Of a stretch of 64,000 nucleotides of DNA, positions 1,796 through 1,918 are shown piece after piece. Position 1 is the first letter of the stretch, and every line of letters starts with the position of its first letter. The DNA lies in assembly GCA_015295835.1 (NCBI GenBank), contig DVEG01000009.1:1-64000 (forward strand), given 5' to 3'. The notes below the pieces were generated by a model that saw only the letters and a list, made by a program, of their open reading frames with translations, ran no database searches and was not told the origin of the DNA. The position numbers and the translations under genes are program-made. Source of the DNA: Oscillatoriaceae cyanobacterium M7585_C2015_266 (GTDB taxonomy: Bacteria > Cyanobacteriota > Cyanobacteriia > Cyanobacteriales > Oscillatoriaceae).

Positions 1796-1830
1796 AAAAA
1801 ATAAAAAACCGCAGTATTTATTCTGCGGTT
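1796..1830 (-). terminator. Attenuator terminator 1 of aroF leader
   Basis: On the minus strand an 8-base perfect stem, AACCGCAG (1830-1823) with CTGCGGTT (1814-1807), and an 8-base loop are followed by a T-rich tract (TTTTTTATTTTTT). It overlaps antiterminator 1 by four bases. Confidence 0.85.
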
Positions 1831-1874
1831 CACCGAGGTTTTCCATGGTAAATTACATTCACTCTCGGTGAACC
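1827..1874 (-). promoter_or_regulatory. Antiterminator hairpin 1
   Basis: A perfect 11-base inverted repeat: GGTTCACCGAG as read on the transcript (1874 to 1864) pairs with CTCGGTGAACC (1837 to 1827). The 3' arm shares positions 1827-1830 with the terminator stem, so the two hairpins exclude each other. Confidence 0.8.
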
Positions 1875-1918
1875 TGTCTAAACCACCAAAAATAAAAGTA
1901 AGATTTACTGCTAGACAT
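1859..1918 (-). CDS. Aromatic leader peptide 1 of aroF
   Basis: A 19-codon ORF, ATG at 1918 and TGA at 1859-1861. After MSSSKS it encodes seven aromatic residues in a row, YFYFWWF, then RQVHRE. Its last codons, CAG GTT CAC CGA GAG, contain arm 1 (1864-1874) of the antiterminator that follows. There is no obvious Shine-Dalgarno sequence, which is common in cyanobacteria. A run of seven aromatic codons mixing all three amino acids is very unlikely by chance directly upstream of DAHP synthase and is what a sensor of total aromatic tRNA charging needs. Confidence 0.87.
   Translation of the reverse strand: MSSSKSYFYFWWFRQVHRE

Follow-up and report, generated by a model that had tools for sequence, protein, structure and literature searches.

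Two leader-peptide units in series as candidate transcription attenuators upstream of a cyanobacterial DAHP synthase gene

The leader region and the aroF1 enzyme

The window, i.e., the whole stretch of 64,000 nucleotides that was analysed, carries at 1613-756 of its minus strand the gene aroF1, which encodes a DAHP synthase of 285 aa (Pfam DAHP_synth_1, E 1.4e-79) and is the presumed target of the leader region described here. All elements of this region lie on the same strand and are given in the direction of transcription. A sigma-70-like promoter made of TTGACA (1981-1976), a spacer of 17 bases and TAAGGT (1958-1953) occupies positions 1981-1953, and 34 bases separate its -10 box from the ATG of a first leader ORF. 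The preliminary description of this DNA had recognised the same promoter and had set it 28-30 bases upstream, a distance that the interval to the ATG does not bear out and that would suit a start point a few bases downstream of the -10 box. A TTGAC-N-TA...T pair can be read by eye at a similar place above the first leader in 17 upstream stretches, some organisms being represented twice. Upstream, the promoter adjoins a pyridoxal-phosphate enzyme gene (Pfam PALP) of the same strand at 2998-2021.

The first leader peptide, LP1 (MSSSKSYFYFWWFRQVHRE, then a stop codon), is encoded at 1918-1859 and contains seven aromatic codons in an uninterrupted run. Its VHRE codons include the first arm of the unit 1 antiterminator (GGTTCACCGAG, 1874-1864), which pairs perfectly over 11 bp with a second arm (CTCGGTGAACC, 1837-1827); the latter overlaps the 5' arm of terminator 1 (1831-1796), composed of GAACCGCAG (1831-1823), a loop, CTGCGGTTT (1814-1806) and a T-rich tract. 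The terminator stem AACCGCAG/CTGCGGTT counts 8 bp, or 9 with a G-U pair (1831-1806). Thus far the locus is as the preliminary description had it: the ORF of seven consecutive Tyr, Phe and Trp codons, the 11-bp hairpin formed by its 3' codons and the overlapping 8-bp intrinsic terminator were all found in place. That account, correct for unit 1, stopped there and overlooked a second leader, antiterminator and terminator at 1767-1643. LP2 (MTTFNQNWFYRFYFWPTLSSG, then a stop codon) is encoded at 1767-1702; its last codons include antiterminator arm 1 (TGAGTTCTGGGT, 1715-1704), and arm 2 (GCCCGGAACTCG, 1675-1664) overlaps the entire 5' arm of terminator 2 (1674-1643), which consists of CCCGGAACT (1674-1666), a CGAAA loop, GGTTCCGGG (1660-1652) and a T tract. 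Since the second ORF has its own arms and its own terminator, the feature has to be regarded as a tandem that spans the distance from the promoter to aroF1 (1613). In each unit antiterminator and terminator share one strand and are mutually exclusive.

Short ORFs (up to 30 aa) with at least seven aromatic codons in nine number two on both strands of the 64 kb, and these are LP1 and LP2; the mean in 20 Markov-1 simulations was 0.05. At six aromatic codons in nine the window holds seven short ORFs for a simulated mean of 0.35, which indicates that the Markov-1 simulation understates the background of real DNA. A plain fold of the leader region gives a long LP1 hairpin that uses the WW codons of the window. 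No Rfam family (T-box and others) reached its gathering score in the leader region, and the two matches obtained were at chance level (E 0.3 and 0.74). An unrelated ORF runs off the window start on the plus strand (1-517); it is made of repeated ARANLQAQLDEATA units, looks coiled-coil-like and has a C-terminal hydrophobic stretch.

The match of aroF1 to the 276-aa protein 1vs1 begins at residue 4, and the 338-aa protein 1rzm is matched from residue 80 onward only; from these starting points aroF1 is without an N-terminal extension. We take the extension of 1rzm to be the feedback domain of that enzyme. The same genome encodes a paralogue of 352 aa that has an N-terminal extension and whose upstream region contains no aromatic leader, and it is tempting to suppose that at aroF1 control of transcription stands in place of allosteric control. 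Neither a leader pair nor an ORF with at least six aromatic codons in nine was found in any of six upstream regions of paralogous aroF genes or in any of 20 upstream regions of deeper homologues. At lower thresholds one ORF with four aromatic codons in nine is seen in the paralogue regions L126 and L127, and some AT-rich ORFs reach four to five in nine among the deeper homologues. An ORF at the matching place in the related loci L152 and L153 was considered as a leader and left uncounted, there being no terminator-like stem.

Conservation and covariation of the two units

The preliminary description had proposed to look among relatives for the leader ORF, its aromatic run, both pairings and compensatory changes in both hairpins of unit 1; all of these are conserved, and the compensatory changes exist. 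Eighty named loci were obtained from a single scan across bacteria and archaea; 76 of them have at least 400 bases upstream, and a pattern search retrieved both leaders in 72 of these 76. In the other four, the pattern missed an LP2 (L011, L023), LP1 is shortened (L032, Trichodesmium) or LP1 is absent (L026). A larger set comprised 131 aroF1 upstream regions, none shorter than 400 bases; the six paralogue controls were excluded from it, and certain organisms entered it under two loci. LP1 was retrieved in 124 of these regions and LP2 in 125. A pattern was missed in 12 regions. On reading, L011, L023, L095 and L124 do have LP2, the LP1 of L032 is the shortened one already mentioned, LP1 is absent from L026 (= L136), L120 and L141, and LP2 is absent from L121; L105 has LP2 alone and L118 a single leader of another kind. 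Phenylalanine, tryptophan and tyrosine are all present in 98 of 99 distinct LP1 peptides and in 97 of 98 distinct LP2 peptides, and F, Y and W interchange at single aromatic positions of both leaders. A tryptophan stands at position -8 in 96 of the 99 LP1 peptides; in LP2 a tryptophan is found at -7 in 83 and a proline at -6 in 52 of the 98. The N-terminal parts of the leaders are variable.

Covariance models of unit 1 (R1) and unit 2 (R2) were searched against 242 genomes of the class and matched 86 and 83 of them, respectively, with one match of each in the source genome. An aroF1 orthologue was called at E 1e-95 in 87 genomes; 82 of these have R1, 76 have R2, 74 have both and three have neither. 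Every one of the 82 R1 and 76 R2 matches lies on the contig and strand of aroF1; the distance to the downstream aroF1 match is 108-368 bases for R1 and 19-181 bases for R2. All 76 genomes with both units have unit 1 first, 15-173 bases ahead of unit 2. The three genomes with neither unit are members of family f71; the aroF of this family has an identity of 58%, and no leader is present in the stretch read. Leaders are weak in G684, LP2 stands alone in G811, and in G734, G773 and G815 LP2 is present though R2 missed it. In family f70 (L216-L220), LP1 is retained and LP2 was not found in any of the five genomes, which are natural one-unit variants.

Four genomes have R1 and no called aroF1 (G739, G725, G030 and G735). 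The contig of G739 ends just below LP2 and that of G725 extends 422 bases beyond unit 2, so that in both some or all of aroF1 may be missing from the contig; G735 has LP1, and aroF1 was not found in it. In G030 (L201:2005-2360) LP1 is fused to the remains of a decayed aroF1, and leader and gene appear to have been lost together. R2 matches without a called aroF1 occur in seven genomes, namely G725, G739 and five small genomes of family f26. The five f26 matches are weak (E 0.001-0.004) and were taken as chance from the one examined, in G163 (G163:C1:320074-320138), where the match falls on the strand opposite a coding frame that is presumably part of a cytochrome b6f-like gene pair.

The pairing of the arms was followed in two alignments, A1 with 48 of 50 diverse unit 1 sequences (two long ones left out) and A2 with 41 of 67 diverse unit 2 sequences; as the more divergent units were left out of A2, covariation of unit 2 covers its better-aligned part. 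The 500 shuffles used as controls do not preserve relatedness. In A1, 92.2% of the cells of antiterminator 1 pair, with double-sided changes in 6 of 11 pairs (reached by 22 of the 500 shuffles) and 40 double-change cells (0/500; slid controls give at most 13 cells). At one pair of the LP1 arm, 56-97, 6 sequences have G-C and 42 have A-U, and the LP1 histidine is replaced by arginine in 6 peptides. Terminator 1 pairs in 98.7% of cells and shows 8 double-change cells (0/500; slid controls at most 1). For antiterminator 2, 90.0% of the A2 cells pair and double-sided changes are found in 5 of 11 pairs (1/500) and 17 cells (0/500); slid by +2 it gives 6 pairs and 13 cells at 24% pairing, and slid by +3, 5 pairs and 10 cells at 15% pairing. 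Terminator 2 pairs in 94.2% of cells with 3 double-change cells (6/500), compared with 5 when slid by +3, so that terminator 2 is clearly conserved but does not clearly covary. Judged from these alignments, compensatory changes support both helices of unit 1 clearly, antiterminator 2 well and terminator 2 only slightly.

Proposed switch and its alternatives

When arm 1 is masked, a terminator of at least 6 bp forms in 105 of 105 folds of unit 1 and 111 of 113 of unit 2. When arm 1 is free and the terminator 3' arm is still unmade, an antiterminator of at least 6 bp forms in 105 of 105 and 108 of 112. Once the RNA is complete and arm 1 is free, none of the four terminator pairs closest to the T tract survives in 77 of 105 folds of unit 1 and 51 of 112 of unit 2, and all four survive in 21 and 57; under a stricter test (terminator below 6 bp, arm 1 free) the counts are 25 of 105 and 18 of 113. 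A short upper stem, at a distance from the T tract, can remain in unit 1, and the fold of the window is an example. From these equilibrium counts unit 1 would be mostly a thermodynamic switch, and unit 2 would need its antiterminator to be formed first, by the order of synthesis. Three segments (leader tail, arm 2 and terminator 3' arm) account for the observed pairing; an extra, protecting helix between the start of LP2 and bases past its stop was considered and dropped as weak (mean z 1.2, above 2 in 27% of 108).

Given the size of the ribosome footprint, a ribosome held on an aromatic codon that ends at least 9 bases ahead of arm 1 should leave this arm free, and such codons make up 415 of 610 in LP1 and 734 of 757 in LP2; in LP1 the gap between the final aromatic codon and arm 1 is usually just 5 bases. 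A Shine-Dalgarno-like 4-mer precedes 2 of 124 LP1 and 59 of 125 LP2.

It is highly probable, on the strength of the DNA and its comparison among relatives, that two serial ribosome-mediated transcription attenuators control aroF1 and that each senses the charging of tRNA-Tyr, tRNA-Phe and tRNA-Trp. The parts, their order and conservation, the compensatory changes (weak for terminator 2), the geometry and the tie to aroF1 are observed in the sequences compared; translation of the leaders, stalling, termination and a multiplicative output would follow from them as sketched here. Transcription would start about 27 bases above LP1, as judged from the -10 box. With all three tRNAs charged, the ribosome would reach the stop codon of LP1 and cover arm 1, arm 2 would join terminator 1, and transcription would stop. 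Should any of the three be scarce, the ribosome would stall in the aromatic run and leave arm 1 free to pair with nascent arm 2, the base of terminator 1 would be blocked, and the polymerase would continue to LP2 and terminator 2, where the decision would be repeated. As aroF1 would be transcribed only after both switches are passed, its basal level may be lower and its response steeper than with a single switch.

One may ask whether both units are sensors. If one alone sensed aromatic amino acids, the other would be a structural or constitutive terminator whose leader aids translation or RNA stability, and such a division would be in keeping with the lineages that retain a single unit and with the weaker covariation of unit 2 and its weaker behaviour as an equilibrium switch. 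However, F, W and Y codons, an arm close to the stop and helices that compete with each other are retained in both units, and both are present in 74 of the 87 aroF1-bearing genomes, for which reasons we hold a single sensor to be unlikely. We give still less credit to nascent-peptide arrest of the TnaC type, where free aromatic amino acids, and not uncharged tRNA, would stall the ribosome, and a stall near the stop would mask arm 1 and favour termination. The effect of covering arm 1 near the stop would indeed go in the same direction, and the strong conservation of some residues (W at -8 in LP1, W at -7 and P at -6 in LP2) is what an arrest peptide might display; yet F, Y and W swap at the other aromatic positions, as would be expected were the class of codon what matters, the pairing arms account for the conserved tails VHRE and SSG, which change along with these arms, and a copy associated with a PvcA-like gene (see below) has other residues and nevertheless retains the unit 1 architecture. 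That the ORFs are conserved small proteins or RNAs of other function, or that a riboswitch or T-box lies here and the aromatic runs are incidental, seems to us the least credible, indeed very improbable. Nothing speaks directly for it; a leader peptide can act in trans, as the available part of the account of peTrpL describes, but the N-terminal parts of LP1 and LP2 vary freely while their tails follow the RNA pairing, the Rfam families all stay below gathering score, and the matches of the class in aroF1-bearing genomes are all directly above aroF1.

Two serial attenuators of this kind can be set against known systems. The E. coli trp, pheA and pheST attenuators each read one amino acid per leader and form a four-segment RNA. 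By comparison with E. coli, the aroF1 leader would work with three segments, has its first arm within the last leader codons, and comprises three amino acids and two copies; the enterobacterial trp/phe logic invoked in the preliminary description is therefore upheld as an attenuator reading and would depart from E. coli trp in having three segments instead of four. Tandem riboswitches and tandem T-boxes place two attenuators on one mRNA and sense by binding of a ligand to RNA. In contrast to these and to the tandem attenuators of Mg2+ transporters, which according to the part of PMC4974804 available stand in series on one mRNA and receive mixed inputs, both units here carry leader-peptide codons for the identical three amino acids. 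What is shared with E. coli trp, pheA and pheST, as far as the accessible text of PMC11802643 goes, is the use of end-product codons in the leader and of mutually exclusive antiterminator and terminator. The closest known case is, as a functional likeness drawn by analogy, aroR-aroF of Corynebacterium glutamicum, where a leader with aromatic codons likewise precedes a DAHP synthase gene: the aroR leader (Phe-Tyr-Phe) controls by ribosome stalling an operon with this gene (Neshat et al. 2014, through the accessible text of PMC11802643). According to the same text the Corynebacterium operon, which belongs to a different phylum, has one leader, and this responds to Phe but not Tyr, whereas two leaders are found here, each with Tyr, Phe and Trp. 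The passages available on leader peptides of Actinobacteria (PMC8079986, PMC1262725) and on hisS leader peptides of Firmicutes (PMC2965389) similarly describe ribosome-mediated attenuation outside Proteobacteria, with single leaders and other amino acids, and contain no cyanobacterial case. Two leader peptides also stand upstream of ermB, in an antibiotic-induced switch that the accessible part of PMC8274638 presents as translational.

The preliminary description had known of no ribosome-mediated attenuator of this kind in cyanobacteria, and in the literature searched, most subscription papers being out of reach, we likewise found no leader-peptide attenuator described in this phylum, nor any biosynthetic gene preceded by two such attenuators in tandem; the accessible part of a 2016 paper states that reliable data on attenuation are absent for cyanobacteria (PMC4833913). 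The comparison of sequences supports as new, then, the putative tandem attenuation, the three amino acids per leader and the occurrence in a phylum without a described case in the searchable literature. It is a strongly conserved candidate attenuator in dozens of named genomes, situated at the first step of the shikimate pathway, and it suggests how feedback could still reach a DAHP synthase that has no N-terminal extension like that of its paralogue. If a serial pair reading three amino acids does operate, transcription and translation would have to be coupled tightly enough for attenuation in these bacteria, which offers a natural system for asking about ribosome-RNA polymerase coupling in cyanobacteria. 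The serial arrangement raises the question as to whether doubling the unit serves to multiply the range of control or to make the response sharper, and it is relevant to the engineering of aromatic compounds in cyanobacteria.

Occurrence in the sister class and a relocated copy

Outside crown cyanobacteria, the units were sought in the sister class, that of genome G343, where the photosystem reaction-centre family is absent from all 11 genomes tested. R1 matched 25 of 117 genomes of this class, all of family f59. Of the 29 f59 matches, 27 share the strand of an aroF1 match and precede it by 81-292 bases; the remaining two are one near a contig start in G654 and a moved copy in G611. R2, which was built from crown sequences, matched nine genomes at E 0.05; three of these places are above aroF1 (G638, G633 and, weakly, G611) and the rest resemble chance. 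Among 15 f59 upstream regions read by ORF, 12 have LP1, 10 have LP2 and nine have both, and G633, through R2, makes a tenth with both; L185 and L186 have no leader and L180 is too short for LP1. Pairing of the LP1 tails in f59 is good, and several LP2 tails (L173, L177, L178) do not rise above shuffles.

In families f42 and f63 a single aromatic leader and a terminator-like stem precede the aroF1 orthologues L118, L188, L189, L191 and L192, and no aromatic leader was seen in L190 of the same set. Their antiterminator pairing is individually weak, being reached by 3 to 31 of 200 shuffles. The single leader of f42 and f63 is a possible ancestral, one-unit form.

A protein tree of 51 rows, rooted at its midpoint and with many inner forks open, places the leader-bearing group on one side of a well-supported branch (41 rows, 99/96), G646 and G602 among its rows showing no leader; on the other side are the paralogues, f71 and the deeper homologues. 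Families f42 and f63 fall outside a 36-row group of crown and f59 sequences (99/95). The crown rows form one clade (72/97), and a single f59 clade is not rejected (p-AU 0.293). The sharing of the two units between crown and f59 may reflect either descent or transfer.

Taking these observations jointly, we lean towards the view that serial attenuators, each reading the three aromatic amino acids, are an old control in the cyanobacterial phylum, which would have begun as one leader, as in f42 and f63, and would have doubled before it came, through inheritance or transfer, to crown and f59; the module would moreover be movable, with re-tuned codons, as before the PvcA-like gene.

The moved leader arrangement corresponds to the second R1 match of G611, on another contig (L207, G611:C20:700-3400, minus strand), and represents one case. 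Its leaders are MNRSYYYYCFLEVHQG and MRNCYYGYAYQARGEPRVT, the GTG start of the latter having been chosen by position, and they precede a DIT1_PvcA gene (E 1.8e-74) and a TauD-type dioxygenase gene (E 3.2e-46). Enzymes of the PvcA type are isonitrile synthases whose substrate is Tyr or Trp. The moved leaders are rich in Tyr and have no Trp codons; the best helix of unit 2 is off the expected arm, and the pairing of unit 1 is good (1 of 200 shuffles).
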